The translations under genes were made by a program, and so were the position numbers. From NCBI GenBank assembly GCA_013151835.1, contig JAADHK010000081.1, positions 1-59,787 on the forward strand: a stretch of 59,787 nt of DNA, given 5' to 3'. Source of the DNA: Deltaproteobacteria bacterium (GTDB lineage Bacteria > Desulfobacterota > Desulfobacteria > Desulfobacterales > Desulfosalsimonadaceae). Numbering within the stretch: the first letter of the stretch is position 1; each line of letters opens with the position of its first letter. Of the stretch, positions 12,161-59,787 are shown one piece after another. The notes under the pieces were generated by a model. It saw nothing but the letters and a program-made list of their open reading frames with translations. It was not told the DNA's origin and did not search any database.

Positions 12161-12673
12161 TCAGGGTGTCGCCTCACGATAAAGACTTCTCACAAATATG
12201 ATGTATTTGCGCATGTAGTAAACCATCACAATTGCCGTAAAAAGCAGCACGGTCCAGGCATATTGCCACCCTATGATATATACCATGACCGTCGGATAAA
12301 CCGCTGCCGCCAGAAGATTCGTCTCCAGATGGGGTATATCCAGAATCCCGGCTTTCCGTGAAATAAGGTAGATTATGGGGGTCCAGAAGGCTATCCCCGT
12401 GAGGGTTACGATCAAAAGCGGCCATGCCTTTGACACGTAAACAACAACGAATATCGTCGTAAACCCGAAGAGAAAATCCGCCAGTGCATCAAAGTTCGCC
12501 CCATACGTCACTTTCTTTTTGCTTCTTCTGGCAAAATAACCATCCAGGGTGTCTGTTATGGCGCCGGCGGCAAAAAGATAGTAGGCGATTACCTTTTCAT
12601 CACGCAGCAAGAGCCAGATAATAATAGGCGTAAAAATAATCCTCAAAGACGTCATAATATCCGCTATTCTCAT
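12161..12673 (-). CDS. CDP-alcohol phosphatidyltransferase family enzyme
   Basis: 170 residues, an integral membrane enzyme. The defining CDP-alcohol phosphotransferase motif D-x2-DG-x2-AR-x8-G-x3-D-x3-D is complete: DTLDGYFARR, then G, then ANFDALAD. At least four hydrophobic helices surround it. These enzymes displace CMP from a CDP-activated lipid or alcohol to make a phospholipid. GAGGTG nine bases before the ATG at 12673 supports this start over an upstream TTG. Gene order with the soluble cytidylyltransferase at 12778-13209 suggests that one makes a CDP-alcohol and the other uses it. The headgroup (glycerol, inositol or other) cannot be fixed. Confidence 0.85.
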   Translation of the reverse strand: MRIADIMTSLRIIFTPIIIWLLLRDEKVIAYYLFAAGAITDTLDGYFARRSKKKVTYGANFDALADFLFGFTTIFVVVYVSKAWPLLIVTLTGIAFWTPIIYLISRKAGILDIPHLETNLLAAAVYPTVMVYIIGWQYAWTVLLFTAIVMVYYMRKYIIFVRSLYREATP

Positions 12674-12777
12674 TGTCGGCGCACCTCTTGAGTTTACATG
12701 ATTATTTGTCAATGTTGGCTCTTACGGGCCGGGCATATGGCCCATCGACGATTTGCGGTTGTTGATACCGCTGTTTT

Positions 12778-13209
12778 TTAATTTTTTTCCCGGACAGTTT
12801 TGTGCAATATTTCATTTTTGATATTTGAAGAAGACTGGCCCGGAAAATAAGGAATTACAATGACTCTTCCGTTGATGTCTTCCATAACTTTTTTTGCCTT
12901 TTCGATATCCTTCTCGTCATGGCTTGAGCTTTCCATGAGTATGTCGGGCTTTATACTCATGACATTCGGCAAGGGGGAATAGGTTTCCTGGGCAACCACC
13001 ACATCTACATACTTTATTGCGGCGGCAATCTCCATTCTTTCTTCAAAGGAGATCAGCGGCCTGGGTTTTTTCTCCATAACTGCGGCATCGGTTAGAATCC
13101 CGGCAATCAATTTGCCGTTTTTTCCGGCGATCTCTTTTGCATTTTTCATCATCAAAAGATGGCCTATATGAAGGATGTCCAATACGTAATAGGAATAAAC
13201 GATTTTCAT
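12778..13209 (-). CDS. Cytidylyltransferase-like nucleotidyltransferase
   Basis: 143 residues with the HxGH signature of the nucleotidyltransferase superfamily (LDILHIGHLLMMKNA near residue 12) and the downstream substrate and nucleotide segments KKPRPLISFEERMEIAAAIK and FPGQSSSNIKNEI, the latter equivalent to the SSTxIK motif. The length suits a single-domain CTP:phospho-alcohol cytidylyltransferase. It closely recalls the cytidylyltransferase domains linked to phospholipid or phosphonate head-group activation. It lies 105 bases upstream of the CDP-alcohol phosphatidyltransferase on the same strand, a natural two-step pathway. An adenylyltransferase role is possible from sequence alone. Confidence 0.8.
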   Translation of the reverse strand: MKIVYSYYVLDILHIGHLLMMKNAKEIAGKNGKLIAGILTDAAVMEKKPRPLISFEERMEIAAAIKYVDVVVAQETYSPLPNVMSIKPDILMESSSHDEKDIEKAKKVMEDINGRVIVIPYFPGQSSSNIKNEILHKTVREKN

Positions 13210-54990: not shown

Positions 54991-55211
54991 GTTTTAAATT
55001 CAGCCTGGTGATGTAAAAAAGCGTTTCATATTATCTAATTGACACTATCTTCCAGCCACACCAAATCAGGAAAAAATATGTGTTGAACGTATGCAGGGTG
55101 GAATAGTTTTTCATATTGTTCTTGCTTTTTCCGGTAATAAGATACAATATTTGCATCTTCAAATTATGTACGTTCAAATTTTGCCGGTCAATCAGCAAGG
55201 ATATTGATAGA

Positions 55212-55733
55212 ATGGAGCATAATGTGCCAGGCGTAACGATCACACGAGAGATGTTCCTTAAGGACAATCAGGGCCGAACGTTTTCCGATGTTGTGAATGA
55301 TCCGGAACAATCTTTCACCGCAGTTCTTGAATTCTTTAATGATAGCAACAGGCAACGTCGGATGAAGGAGTCTGAGATTCATCACGACAGACCTCCGATG
55401 GCTGGCGTTATCCGGGAACTTGAATCACATCCTGCCATCGATCGGTCTCTGGCAGATATACACACTCAGAGGAGCAAGCGATTACGGCAGGCTGTTGGCG
55501 TGGTGGTACGAATGATCATGGAGGCCAGTGGTTGGCAAAAAACCGGACGAAAAGGCTCTCTAGGTGTAAGGGCCAGTGGGAATCGATCGGCTCCCACGCA
55601 CAACACGGGCGGACTCGCATTTTGGTTCATACGTGCTGAGCGTTACAAGCGTGCTGAGGGTATGCCGTACCGATCGGTACGAGAGCGCTGTCAAAACCTC
55701 GAAACCACAGCGCCACAACAATCACGCAACTAA
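55212..55733 (+). CDS. Unrecognised protein
   Basis: 173 residues from the ATG that follows AAGGATATTGATAGA; the frame is open farther upstream, but that part is AT-rich and looks non-coding. The sequence is hydrophilic with no signal peptide or membrane helix. Recognisable landmarks are KDNQGRTFSDVVNDPEQSF, the Arg-rich RSKRLRQAVGVVVRMIMEAS and the C-terminal GGLAFWFIRAERYKRAEGMP with YRSVRERC. The many Arg residues and short helices could suit nucleic-acid binding, but no family is recognised. An inverted-repeat element starts two bases after its stop codon. Confidence 0.5.
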   Translation: MEHNVPGVTITREMFLKDNQGRTFSDVVNDPEQSFTAVLEFFNDSNRQRRMKESEIHHDRPPMAGVIRELESHPAIDRSLADIHTQRSKRLRQAVGVVVRMIMEASGWQKTGRKGSLGVRASGNRSAPTHNTGGLAFWFIRAERYKRAEGMPYRSVRERCQNLETTAPQQSRN

Positions 55734-55925: not shown

Positions 55926-56825
55926 GTGAATTTGAACAACCATTTTAACAACAGACGCGTAACAACGGCATTGCTTCTTGCAGCCGGCACGGGGAGTCGT
56001 CTGTACCCCTTGACGAAAAGCAGGCCTAAGTGCCTTACAATGGTCAATGGAACGTCCATCCTTGAACGCCTTGTTGATTGTTTAAAGCAGCAAGGCTTCA
56101 AGCGCCTGGTTGTGGTCACGGGGCACCTTGAACATTGTATTCGGGAGTTTCTGGGAACACAGGCGGGCGGCATGACCGTCGAGTACATTTTCAGCCCGCT
56201 GTATGAGACGACCAATAACATTTATTCACTCTGGATGGCCCGTGAACGTATTCATGAGCCGTTTCTGCTGGTCGAAAGCGATCTTGTTTTTGACGAATCT
56301 CTGCTGGATGACATGCTTTATCCTGATAGAATTGCCGTTGCACACATGCAGCCGTGGATGGACGGTTCCACTGTCACAGCCAATCAATTTAAACAGGTTA
56401 AGGCCTTCCGGAGCGGCACGGCCGGCCCTTCAGATGAGATCAGATACAAGACGGTGAATATTTACAGTTTCTCGCGCTCTTCATGGCTTGCTATTTCAAA
56501 AAATTTAGACCGGTACATTTCATCCGGCAGGGTCCATGACTATTATGAAGCCGTCTTTGCGGGCATGGTGGCTGACGGAGGCCTCTCGCTTCAGACCGTC
56601 TCTTTTGACAACAAGCCCTGGTATGAAATTGATACTATTTCCGATCTGGCAGAAGCTGAGAAGATTTTTCAGGCAGACGCATATAAATCAACTATTCGTG
56701 ACAATATCACGCCGCAGCCCTCAGTAAGGCCGCTGTTTCAACGAGCTAACAGACAGGCGGAGACGACAGCACGTCCCTTTTCCGGTGTCAGGGCTTCAAC
56801 CCATGCTTTCAATTTGGGGCGCTGA
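55926..56825 (+). CDS. Cytidylyltransferase-type NTP transferase (phosphocholine/phosphonate type)
   Basis: 299 residues of the NTP_transferase fold: TALLLAAGTGSRLYPLTKSR then PKCLTMVNGTSILE (nucleotide and metal loop), VVVTGHLEHCI, FSPLYETTNNIYSLWMAR and LLVESDLVFDE. The NIYSL and ESDLVF elements are typical of LicC/PntC-like CTP:phosphocholine or phosphonate cytidylyltransferases rather than sugar nucleotidyltransferases. A GTG start with AAGGA a few bases upstream is used. The next gene is a HisC/CobD-like PLP enzyme; together they match the two halves of FrbH, the fused CMP-transferase/decarboxylase of FR-900098 synthesis. Which phosphorylated or phosphonated compound it activates is unknown. 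Confidence 0.75.
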   Translation: MNLNNHFNNRRVTTALLLAAGTGSRLYPLTKSRPKCLTMVNGTSILERLVDCLKQQGFKRLVVVTGHLEHCIREFLGTQAGGMTVEYIFSPLYETTNNIYSLWMARERIHEPFLLVESDLVFDESLLDDMLYPDRIAVAHMQPWMDGSTVTANQFKQVKAFRSGTAGPSDEIRYKTVNIYSFSRSSWLAISKNLDRYISSGRVHDYYEAVFAGMVADGGLSLQTVSFDNKPWYEIDTISDLAEAEKIFQADAYKSTIRDNITPQPSVRPLFQRANRQAETTARPFSGVRASTHAFNLGR

Positions 56826-56882
56826 TTCGCCTGATCTTCAAAAAAATGAAGAGTCTCCAAATAAATCAATAGGAACTTATAC

Positions 56883-57995
56883 ATGAAGCAATATGATTAT
56901 GAGACTCAAGCACAAAAATACGCATTCATCTCCGGACAGCATGGTGGGTACTATCATCATGATTTTGTAGATCATTCCTATCTCTATAACCTCTATTTCC
57001 CGCCAGAGGCGGTTTTTACCAACTTCAAAAATCAGATCCACGATCTTGTCTTAAACTACCCGGTTGCACAGGATGCCTTGGCCGGTCTTATCGGTAAGCT
57101 GATACATCAACCGGCTGAAAGGATTGTCGTTGGAAATGGCGCGGCCGAACTTATAAAAATTGTCTCAGGTCACATATGCGGTAAGTTGATAGTCCCGGTA
57201 CCCTCTTTTAATGAATATGCGAATGCGGCGCCGTCGGGCCGGGCTGTTGAATTTGCGCTTGAAGTTCCATCCTTCCATCTGGATGTGGATAAATTTGCAG
57301 CTGAAGCAATCAGGGTTAAAGCTGATGTGGCTGTTGTGGTAACACCAAATAATCCGACATCTATGCTGGTACCCAGGGCAGATATCGTCCGTCTTGCACA
57401 AAAACTTGCACCTCATGACTGTATGCTGATCATCGATGAATCCTTTATGGATTTTATCCAAAACCCGAGCCAAACAACCCTGGAGCAGGACATCGAGCGT
57501 TACCCCAATATGGCAATTTTTAAAAGCATGAGCAAAGCCTATGGAATCTGCGGTCTTAGGATTGGCTATATGCTTACCGCCAATGCCGCCTTTGCCGAAG
57601 CGGTACGAAAAGGTGTGCATATCTGGAATATTAATGGGTTTGCAGAAGAATTTTTGCGGATTTTACCAGATTACCGGCAGGAGTTTGTCGAAAGCTGTAA
57701 ACTGGTACGGGCCGACCGGGACAATCTATATCGCAAACTGTGTTCTATCCCGGGAATGACTGTGTACAAACCCGATGCAAATTTTGTATTCTGCCGTCTC
57801 CCCGATGATACGCAAAGCGCTCCTGAATTCACGCGGAGATTATTTGTTGAGCATAACATGTACATAAAACACTGTTCAGACAAAACACTTAAGGATTCTG
57901 ATCGATATGTTCGTATTGCCAGCCGTACCGAAACAGAGAATTGCGTTTTAGTTGACGCATTGGCAGATATCATTGACTCGAAAAATGAGGTTTAA
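56883..57995 (+). CDS. HisC/CobD-like PLP-dependent aminotransferase or decarboxylase
   Basis: 370 residues, fold type I PLP enzyme. Features are IVVGNGAAELIKIV, AVVVTPNNPTSMLVP (cofactor-binding Asn), CMLIIDESFMDFI (Asp pairing with the pyridine N) and the Schiff-base Lys in FKSMSKAYGICGLRIGYM; the final Arg is in RYVRIASRTE. The sequence is nearest to histidinol-phosphate aminotransferase and L-threonine-phosphate decarboxylase types, so either transamination or decarboxylation of a phosphorylated amino acid is possible. It is 57 bases downstream of the cytidylyltransferase gene and ends two bases before the class III aminotransferase gene, so all are one transcript. Confidence 0.8.
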   Translation: MKQYDYETQAQKYAFISGQHGGYYHHDFVDHSYLYNLYFPPEAVFTNFKNQIHDLVLNYPVAQDALAGLIGKLIHQPAERIVVGNGAAELIKIVSGHICGKLIVPVPSFNEYANAAPSGRAVEFALEVPSFHLDVDKFAAEAIRVKADVAVVVTPNNPTSMLVPRADIVRLAQKLAPHDCMLIIDESFMDFIQNPSQTTLEQDIERYPNMAIFKSMSKAYGICGLRIGYMLTANAAFAEAVRKGVHIWNINGFAEEFLRILPDYRQEFVESCKLVRADRDNLYRKLCSIPGMTVYKPDANFVFCRLPDDTQSAPEFTRRLFVEHNMYIKHCSDKTLKDSDRYVRIASRTETENCVLVDALADIIDSKNEV

Positions 57996-57996
57996 T

Positions 57997-59310
57997 ATGA
58001 AATTAGATAATAACATGTCTGTATCTAAAATAGATTATGTATCTATAAAAGACACTTATGCGTGTCCTTGCGATGAATCAAAAATGTATGATAAATTTTT
58101 AATGCCGGTAAAATCAAAAGGGATGTGGGTTTGGTTTGATGGAGAAGAAGAACCTTATCTTGATTTGGTTCTTAACTACAGTTCTGTAAATTTTGGACAT
58201 TGTTATCCGCCTATTGTAAAAATTGTTAAAGAAGTAATAGAAAGGGTGGATCAAATCCATTCATTTCATTCAAAAGACAAACTTGAATTAAGTGAATATC
58301 TTTCAAAAAAAGTAAGCGCCGATGAAAATTATCAGGTATATTTTAATATAGGTGGTTCTGCGGCTGTTTCTGATGCTATTCGGTTATGTCGTTATACTAC
58401 CGGGAAAAAATGTATGATCTCGTTTGACGGCTCATTTCACGGAGTGAGTTCTGCGGCGGCTTCTGTAGCAGATGACAGATTGGTAGCAAAAGAACAATTT
58501 GGTGTTCCCATATCCGATTACGCATTCTCTGTTCCGTTTCCAAGCACCCATAATGATGTAACTATTAGTGATTGTTTGGAAAAAATTGAAAAGTTGATCT
58601 CGGAAAATGATATCGCCGGAATTATTGTTGAACCGATACAAGGGGCCGGTGGATTTATAATTCCAAAAGATTCTTTTCTTTTGGAATTAAGCAATCTTTG
58701 TAAACGGTGTGACGTAAAATTAATAATAGATGAAATACAAGTGGGTTTTGGACGGGCAGGTTCCTTTTTTGTGTATCAACAATATGGAGTGGAAAATCCG
58801 GATATCGTTCTTTTGTCAAAATCAATAGCAGGCGGTTATTTTCCTGTTAGTGCCGTCATCGCACGTTCTGATTTTTTTGCCAATGTACCCCGTAGAGGGA
58901 CGGCTTTTCAAACTACTTTTAATAACAGTTCCCTGGGACTGGGAATAGCTAATCAATTAATGAAATTAGTAGAAAGAGAGAAGATTTTTGATGGTATATT
59001 AGAAAAAGGGAAAGCTTTTTTAGAAAAATTAAATTTTTTAAGTAAAAGCCCTTATGTCGCTAATTTAAGAGGGGTGGGGTTCGCGATTGCTTTTGATATT
59101 GTGGATCCATTATCTAAATTGCCGTCGGATAAATTAGCAAAAACATTTGTGTCTCAATGTTTAAAAGAGCATGTGATAAGTTATGCCTGTGGTGTTAATT
59201 TTAACAGTGTCAAAATTATACCTTCCTTAGTCGTTACCAATGAAGAAATAGATATAATAACTGAGAGACTTGGCAGATGCTTGCAAAGCTTTCATGACCA
59301 TGTGAAGTAG
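57997..59310 (+). CDS. Class III PLP-dependent aminotransferase
   Basis: 437 residues with the class III pattern: YLDLVLNYSSVNFGHCYPP, NIGGSAAVSDAIRLCRYTTG, SFDGSFHGVSSAA, IIVEPIQGAGGFIIP, LIIDEIQVGFGRAG and the Schiff-base Lys in VLLSKSIAGGYFPVSAV. Such enzymes move amino groups to omega or alpha positions of varied keto acids. GAGG six bases before the ATG at 57997 sets the start. The gene is strikingly AT-rich and uses A/T-ending codons, unlike the genes to its left, which points to recent acquisition. A class III aminotransferase (FrbG) accompanies FrbH in the FR-900098 pathway. Confidence 0.85.
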   Translation: MKLDNNMSVSKIDYVSIKDTYACPCDESKMYDKFLMPVKSKGMWVWFDGEEEPYLDLVLNYSSVNFGHCYPPIVKIVKEVIERVDQIHSFHSKDKLELSEYLSKKVSADENYQVYFNIGGSAAVSDAIRLCRYTTGKKCMISFDGSFHGVSSAAASVADDRLVAKEQFGVPISDYAFSVPFPSTHNDVTISDCLEKIEKLISENDIAGIIVEPIQGAGGFIIPKDSFLLELSNLCKRCDVKLIIDEIQVGFGRAGSFFVYQQYGVENPDIVLLSKSIAGGYFPVSAVIARSDFFANVPRRGTAFQTTFNNSSLGLGIANQLMKLVEREKIFDGILEKGKAFLEKLNFLSKSPYVANLRGVGFAIAFDIVDPLSKLPSDKLAKTFVSQCLKEHVISYACGVNFNSVKIIPSLVVTNEEIDIITERLGRCLQSFHDHVK

Positions 59311-59317
59311 AAAGATT

Positions 59318-59787
59318 ATGGATGAAGTAAATAAAAGAATGGCCATTATGAACCTGCTATATATTGGTGTTTGCAAAGAGAACCTTGAAAAATATTATCC
59401 GTCTTACATTAAAGGTGAATTTTTAACAGATACATTCACTGACGCCGAATTGGTAGATGCTATAATACTTAAAGATATTAATATTTTAATGGTGGATGTG
59501 TTTAATTCAACATTCACAGCATCATTATTGCAACAATTGAAAGGGCGCATAAAACTAATAAATTTTTTGTATCAATCCATTGATTCTTTAATAGACTTAA
59601 AAGAAGCCGCGAATTGCGGCATAGAAGTTAAAAAATTACCTGATGACATTTACTGTCATGAAGTGGCTGAGTTTGCGGTTGCTCAATTATTATGTGCCTG
59701 TAAGGGCACAATCCAATTTGATAAATCTATTAAAAACGGAGAATGGAACCAGGCAATCAATACAAATTTTTCATTACAAGGTAAAAC
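59318..59787 (+). CDS. D-2-hydroxyacid dehydrogenase-like protein, N-terminal part (cut by window end)
   Basis: The frame is open from an ATG at 59318 to the window edge (about 156 residues). The sequence follows the N-terminal catalytic domain of D-isomer 2-hydroxyacid dehydrogenases: ADAI/DAIILKDINILMVD, LKGRIKLINFLYQSIDSLID, GIEVKKLPD and CHEVAEFAVAQLLCACKG, the segment before the NAD-binding domain. The NAD-binding half lies outside the window. It starts seven bases after the class III aminotransferase and shares its AT-rich composition, so it is part of the same operon. The family reduces 2-oxo acids; the substrate is unknown. Confidence 0.7.
   Translation, partial: MDEVNKRMAIMNLLYIGVCKENLEKYYPSYIKGEFLTDTFTDAELVDAIILKDINILMVDVFNSTFTASLLQQLKGRIKLINFLYQSIDSLIDLKEAANCGIEVKKLPDDIYCHEVAEFAVAQLLCACKGTIQFDKSIKNGEWNQAINTNFSLQGK

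Follow-up and report, generated by a model that had tools for sequence, protein, structure and literature searches.

In the Kennedy and Lic branches leading to CDP-choline and CDP-ethanolamine (CDP, cytidine diphosphate), a cytidylyltransferase of the LicC fold is followed by either a CDP-alcohol phosphotransferase or a LicD-family transferase. Pairs of a cytidylyltransferase and a pyridoxal phosphate (PLP) enzyme also occur in phosphonate metabolism. FrbH, of FR-900098 synthesis, unites a PF12804 cytidylyltransferase with a CobD/HisC-type decarboxylase that acts on a CMP-tethered intermediate (CMP, cytidine monophosphate), and PntC-AEPT of Treponema denticola (TDE1415; 6pd1/6pd2) combines a cytidylyltransferase with a PLP partner labelled as a class V aminotransferase in 6pd1. 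The CobD-like enzymes SMUL_1544 and Cj1436, to which the decarboxylation of phosphoserine to ethanolamine phosphate is assigned, belong to pathways for cobamides or capsule amides. In hyperthermophiles, the fused IPCT/DIPPS protein couples a nucleoside triphosphate (NTP) transferase to a CDP-alcohol transferase and forms a phosphodiester by way of CDP-inositol. Here we describe a locus at the right-hand end of a 59,787-nucleotide stretch of DNA ('the window'; contig JAADHK010000081.1 of assembly GCA_013151835.1, Desulfosalsimonadaceae), where a LicC/PntC-type cytidylyltransferase and a CobD-like PLP enzyme are encoded by two adjacent open reading frames, ORF1 and ORF2. With moderate confidence, we read this locus as the start of an expanded, horizontally mobile Kennedy-type operon, a variant of known logic that would make a CDP-ethanolamine-type headgroup and is truncated by the contig end.

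The window is the entire contig C41 of a 147-contig genome (G000). An earlier note on this DNA had expected a pathway continuing to the right of the window, where this assembly in fact has no sequence. The last four ORFs are consecutive in the ORF list and all lie on the plus strand:

55926 to 56825, plus strand: ORF1, LicC/PntC-type cytidylyltransferase of 299 amino acids (aa; PF00483, 3.7e-11; PF12804, 3.7e-10), in which residues 262–299 form a low-confidence tail
56883 to 57995, plus strand: ORF2, CobD/SMUL_1544-like PLP enzyme of 370 aa (TIGR01140, 1.1e-51), predicted to decarboxylate L-phosphoserine (or CDP-serine)
57996 to 57997, no strand: junction at which a module is inserted, with the ORF2 stop, 1 nt and the ATG of the next gene; the G+C content falls here
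57997 to 59310, plus strand: class III PLP aminotransferase (AT), first gene of the module (PF00202, 1.5e-76; G+C 0.35)
59318 to 59787, plus strand: D-2-hydroxyacid dehydrogenase (2HADH), N-terminal half only, as the contig ends inside the gene

These families agree with those named in the earlier note, which had also placed the four genes in one transcript. Their spacing (intergenic gaps of 57, 1 and 7 nt) fits co-transcription. The G+C content is 0.484 over the window as a whole and 0.447 in ORF2, but 0.351 in AT and 0.319 in 2HADH. Because this fall lies exactly at the ORF2 stop, AT and 2HADH differ in origin from ORF1 and ORF2. Comparison of ORF2, AT and 2HADH with their relatives showed that differences are concentrated at third codon positions, confirming all three as genuine genes.

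The top structural matches of ORF1 are PntC (6pd2, Z 27.8) and LicC (1jyl, Z 26.5), while its second-best NCBIfam match is the bifunctional IPCT/DIPPS enzyme. Residues G21, R25, K35, D119, E234 and D236 are invariant in 50 of 50 family members. The positions that contact the substrate amine are occupied by Glu in PntC (E104 and E196) and by Asp in LicC (PMC6697681). In ORF1, E117 aligns with PntC E104 and LicC D105, and E208 aligns with LicC D192; both are Glu throughout the same 50 sequences. ORF1 is thus a PF12804 cytidylyltransferase with a PntC-type active site, and Glu at each of the two positions that contact the amine makes choline a less likely substrate than a small primary amine.

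Among proteins of known structure, ORF2 is closest in sequence to SMUL_1544 (6oux; 1e-51 with the family profile), followed by 3ftb and CobD. The best structural match is CobD, a decarboxylase of L-Thr-O-phosphate (1lc7, Z 35.9, root-mean-square deviation 2.5 over 342 residues), with 6oux at Z 34.5. We take SMUL_1544, which belongs to the norcobamide pathway of Sulfurospirillum, to be an L-serine-O-phosphate decarboxylase. ORF2 scored 175.9 bits with the CobD family TIGR01140 and 134.7 bits with HisC. The PLP lysine K218, together with D185, N157, R226, H20 of the HGG motif, W248, N249 and N251, is invariant in all 50 family members examined; a WNING motif is common to ORF2 and SMUL_1544, and the N-terminal HGG is common to CobD-type proteins (L024–L028). 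ORF2 therefore carries the lysine, Asp, Arg, HGG and fold of a CobD/SMUL_1544-type decarboxylase. Cj1436, from Campylobacter jejuni capsule synthesis, is a characterised phosphoserine decarboxylase that yields ethanolamine phosphate (PMC12409886). Judged by these residues and relatives, ORF2 is most likely a decarboxylase of an L-phosphoserine-type substrate, and the most likely chemistry of the locus would lead from phosphoserine to phosphoethanolamine or CDP-ethanolamine.

To place ORF1 and ORF2 in a wider context, an alignment of ORF2 was scanned against 84,980 species genomes. Relatives were found in 172 places, from which 79 distinct loci were kept. ORF1 adjoins ORF2 in nearly all of them. 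A third gene, 3' of the pair, was identified in 75 of the 79 as encoding a CDP-alcohol phosphatidyltransferase (CDP-AP, PF01066), which establishes ORF1-ORF2-CDP-AP as a stand-alone three-gene cassette. The four loci without it comprise L087, L093 and L105, which end shortly after ORF2, and L077, discussed below. The CDP-alcohol motif of the transferase, D59xxDG63xxAR...G80xxxD84xxxD88, is intact, so that a transferase of the kind expected in a Kennedy-type pathway lies downstream in these 75 loci and also in genome G275; the window contig ends before this point. In the closest relative, G034 (L030; ORF2 91% identical), CDP-AP stands directly 3' of ORF2. It is the company of both a cytidylyltransferase and a CDP-alcohol transferase that sets ORF2 apart from SMUL_1544 and Cj1436.

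According to record titles, the cassette occurs in Desulfobacterota, Bacteroidota, Spirochaetes, Calditrichota, Chloroflexi, Planctomycetota and methanogens, the last including Methanosarcina, Methanococcoides and Methanolobus; most carriers are metagenome-assembled genomes (MAGs), but the isolates Labilibaculum sp. K2S and Methanococcoides seepicolus also bear the cassette. ORF2 identity among cassette loci is about 68–92%. Additional genes, mostly beside the cassette, encode a methyltransferase in 12 loci and an ATP-grasp-like protein in 10. No match to ORF2 was found in viral contigs, and no description of the cassette was found in the open-access literature. In a Methanosarcina MAG, the cassette is tandemly duplicated (L073, 6022–12344).

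The window locus departs from this arrangement immediately after ORF2. Its alignment with the closest relative is lost within the last ORF2 codons, and AT was found in only two of the 291 relatives searched, G132 (protein 89% identical) and G275 (97–98%). A search of 395 genomes of the phylum returned no further copies at E 1e-85, and there was no AT match in plasmids or viral contigs. The 2HADH half is 90% identical over 146 aa to a complete 305-aa homologue in L069 (PF02826, 1.5e-47). On contig C90 of G132, AT and 2HADH are followed by a LicD-family gene (PF04991), and upstream of them is a reverse transcriptase that looks like that of a group II intron. In G275, contig C183 (L077) ends with ORF1-ORF2-AT, while contig C117 starts with the C-terminal part of a LicD gene, which matches the same part in G132 at 94% identity and has a stop that overlaps the CDP-AP start. 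Read from these two contig ends, the gene order in G275 is ORF1-ORF2-[AT-2HADH-LicD]-CDP-AP. Cassette and LicD also meet in the cassette locus L115, in which a 79% identical LicD is encoded at a distance of about 2.2 kb.

In the window genome and in G275 alike, the module is AT-rich. Between these genomes, AT DNA is 97% identical over 625 nt, whereas the ORF2 proteins are 83% identical, indicating that the module moves on its own. The spacer between ORF2 and AT is 1 nt in the window and longer in G275. The remainder of 2HADH and a LicD gene were not found elsewhere in the assembly of the window genome; by analogy, the window presumably continues as G275 does, with 2HADH-LicD-CDP-AP.

From these data we propose the following pathway. 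ORF2 would decarboxylate either free phosphoserine to phosphoethanolamine or, in the order of FrbH, CDP-serine to CDP-ethanolamine. ORF1 would attach CMP from cytidine triphosphate, the joint product of the two enzymes being CDP-ethanolamine or a close analogue. CDP-AP would then pass the phospho-aminoalcohol on, most likely to a diradylglycerol or archaeol. The AT-2HADH-LicD module would probably supply or tailor the amino alcohol and add a second transfer of the LicD type, for example onto a glycan. What distinguishes the cassette from the Kennedy and Lic branches is that neither a kinase nor a gene for choline uptake is among its three genes, that the amino alcohol is predicted to come from phosphoserine by way of a PLP decarboxylase, and that the transferase is closer to phosphatidylserine synthase (PSS) than to CEPT1/CHPT1. 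Of the LicA kinase, the LicB choline transporter and LicD, a homologue of the last alone was seen, in the module; around the cassette loci, where no search was aimed specifically at LicA or LicB, no neighbour cluster corresponding to these two proteins recurred.

More tentatively, the cassette may have spread horizontally as a means of turning phosphoserine into CDP-ethanolamine, or into an analogue of it, destined for a polar lipid or phosphodiester not yet described, with swap-in modules beside the transferase, here AT-2HADH-LicD and elsewhere a methyltransferase or an ATP-grasp ligase, diversifying the product. If so, methanogenic archaea and many bacterial phyla would have in common, almost unaltered, a compact, mobile Kennedy-type route that starts from phosphoserine. 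This would hint at an envelope headgroup or osmolyte for which nobody has looked.

Several observations weigh against a Kennedy-type operon. CDP-AP is closest in sequence to the phosphatidylserine and archaetidylserine synthases, which use CDP-diacylglycerol and serine, and its donor could therefore be a CDP-lipid. Of 30 cassette genomes, 25 encode the phosphatidylserine decarboxylase Psd, as does the window genome, so that a plain role in phosphatidylethanolamine or archaetidylethanolamine synthesis would be redundant in most carriers. For the same reason, replacement of a missing Psd was rejected as a general explanation of the cassette, which probably provides a specialised route and not a housekeeping one. 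The gene order in G275 is drawn from two contig ends of a single MAG, in which AT is frameshifted near its start and may be decaying. Finally, CDP-AP was not found in the assembly of the window genome, and its presence downstream of the window is extrapolated from G275.

As ORF1 and ORF2 recall FrbH and PntC-AEPT, the place of phosphoenolpyruvate (PEP) mutase, PepM, bears directly on the function of the locus. The earlier note had correctly reported no PEP mutase in the region, but the genome encodes one, with the motif EDKKFPKVNS, in an operon unlinked to the window genes:

Contig C89, 2197 to 7150, minus strand: phosphonate-type operon (L005) encoding an EamA transporter, a radical SAM/SPASM protein, a fusion of PEP mutase and PF12804 NTP transferase, and a thiamine pyrophosphate enzyme resembling phosphonopyruvate decarboxylase (Ppd)

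With this PepM as query, 39 genomes were searched, 37 of them cassette-bearing. Only the window genome and G308 (Spirochaetaceae) contain a PepM with the EDKxxxxxNS motif, leaving 35 of the 37 cassette genomes without a motif-bearing match, and pepM does not recur among the genes that flank the cassette. In G308, the gene lies in a separate locus on contig C60 (L154), fused to an apparent cytidylyltransferase domain and beside a ppd-like gene. As PepM occurs in two of 37 cassette genomes and is unlinked here as far as the contig reaches, a phosphonate pathway at the window locus is unlikely, and a phosphonate cluster was rejected as the general nature of these loci, pepM being absent or unlinked in most of the 37 genomes. 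A link between the window genes and the C89 operon is conceivable in the window genome alone.

ORF1 resembles PntC-AEPT in fold, in its Glu pair and in having a PLP partner; however, this partner is of the CobD type rather than a labelled class V aminotransferase, no pepM or ppd gene is linked to it in the window, and ORF1 neither adjoins nor is fused to a ppm/pepM gene. With FrbH, the locus has in common the families of both functions and possibly their order of action on a CMP-tethered intermediate, but here the functions reside in separate genes, with neither a linked PEP mutase nor an FrbG-type gene. FrbG is a flavin adenine dinucleotide-dependent N-hydroxylase (PMC7347517), and a class III aminotransferase is therefore no analogue of it. 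The earlier note had taken FrbG for such an aminotransferase and AT for part of an FR-900098-like set; AT instead belongs to the inserted module. Its proposal of CMP-tethered intermediates holds in so far as the FrbH-type pair most likely yields a CMP- or CDP-tethered small amine, but not as a phosphonate pathway, given the distribution of CDP-AP and PepM. The combination that it had said would refute its proposal, namely a genome without PEP mutase and genes resembling those for phosphocholine decoration, is half realised: pepM is present, but at an unlinked locus and fused to a nucleotidyltransferase of its own, and the window genes do resemble phosphocholine/phosphoethanolamine-type activation. 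The case shows how easily pairs of cytidylyltransferase and PLP genes are mistaken for phosphonate clusters. As a guide to the chemistry, the comparison with FrbH keeps its value: fusions of this type occur, among them a 597-aa protein of FrbH-like architecture, in which an NTP transferase is joined to a class I/II PLP domain, encoded in a polysaccharide export/synthesis-like neighbourhood of G022 (L035, 8644–10437).

Other explanations of the locus were weighed against the same evidence. The window genes might tailor a phosphonate made by the C89 pepM-ppd genes, with ORF1 as a PntC for 2-aminoethylphosphonate (AEP) or 2-amino-4-phosphonobutyrate and ORF2 as an AEP transaminase or FrbH-like decarboxylase. 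In favour of this, the C89 operon has no obvious AEP transaminase among its listed genes, and ORF1 is structurally nearest to PntC and carries its Glu pair. Yet the C89 genes lie on another contig and include their own nucleotidyltransferase domain, ORF2 is nearest to phosphoserine/phosphothreonine decarboxylases, and both the rarity of PepM among carriers and the flavin chemistry of FrbG speak against tailoring, which we regard as quite improbable. A soluble phosphodiester, such as ethanolamine-phospho-serine or a glycerophosphoethanolamine osmolyte, could arise if CDP-ethanolamine reacted with a small acceptor bearing a hydroxyl group, in the way that IPCT/DIPPS uses CDP-inositol. That protein has the same pairing of NTP transferase and CDP-alcohol transferase as the cassette and is matched by ORF1, CDP-AP resembles a synthase whose acceptor is serine, both bacteria and archaea, with their different lipids, are among the carriers, and marine-type taxa are named in many record titles, uncorrected for background. 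IPCT/DIPPS differs from the cassette in its inositol substrate, its fusion and its lack of a PLP enzyme. PSS-type enzymes act at the membrane, and a soluble product seems unlikely to us, if less so than phosphonate tailoring.

It is likewise doubtful that ORF2 is an aminotransferase resembling Cj1437, which would convert dihydroxyacetone phosphate to serinol phosphate and make CDP-serinol the product. The HisC/CobD superfamily mixes closely related transaminases and decarboxylases, 3ftb, a near match, is annotated as HisC, and Cj1437 does make serinol phosphate in a capsule pathway (PMC12409886). Against this stand the higher score with TIGR01140 than with HisC and the CobD-type HGG and SMUL_1544-type WNING motifs, which are invariant or nearly so in the ORF2 family. 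An assembly chimera joining unrelated halves at the ORF2-AT junction would account for the abrupt fall in G+C, and the contigs of both genomes break inside the module, as repeats do. However, the independent MAG G275 has the same order with a different junction sequence, and another of its contigs joins LicD to the CDP-AP of the cassette, making a chimera highly improbable. A Kennedy-type operon interrupted by a mobile module remains the reading that we prefer.

The DNA upstream of ORF1 contains one further gene that may accompany the cassette:

55116 to 55733, plus strand: ORF without a Pfam match, a possible companion of the cassette, kept beside it in the closest relatives only

It is about 91% identical at the DNA level to its counterparts in L030 and L033 (G034 and G018), with differences biased towards third codon positions. 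Between this ORF and ORF1, a segment at about 55741–55847 matches (73% over 107 bp) a site in L029 that precedes ORF1 by about 2 kb. Some of this area has an inverted match in L030 as well, possibly as a dispersed repeat. At a distance from the locus, positions 12161–13209 of the window encode, on the minus strand, a PF01467 protein of 143 aa and, after it, a PF01066 protein of 183 aa; from these families, the CTP-transferase/CDP-alcohol transferase pair possibly represents another CDP-alcohol pathway.

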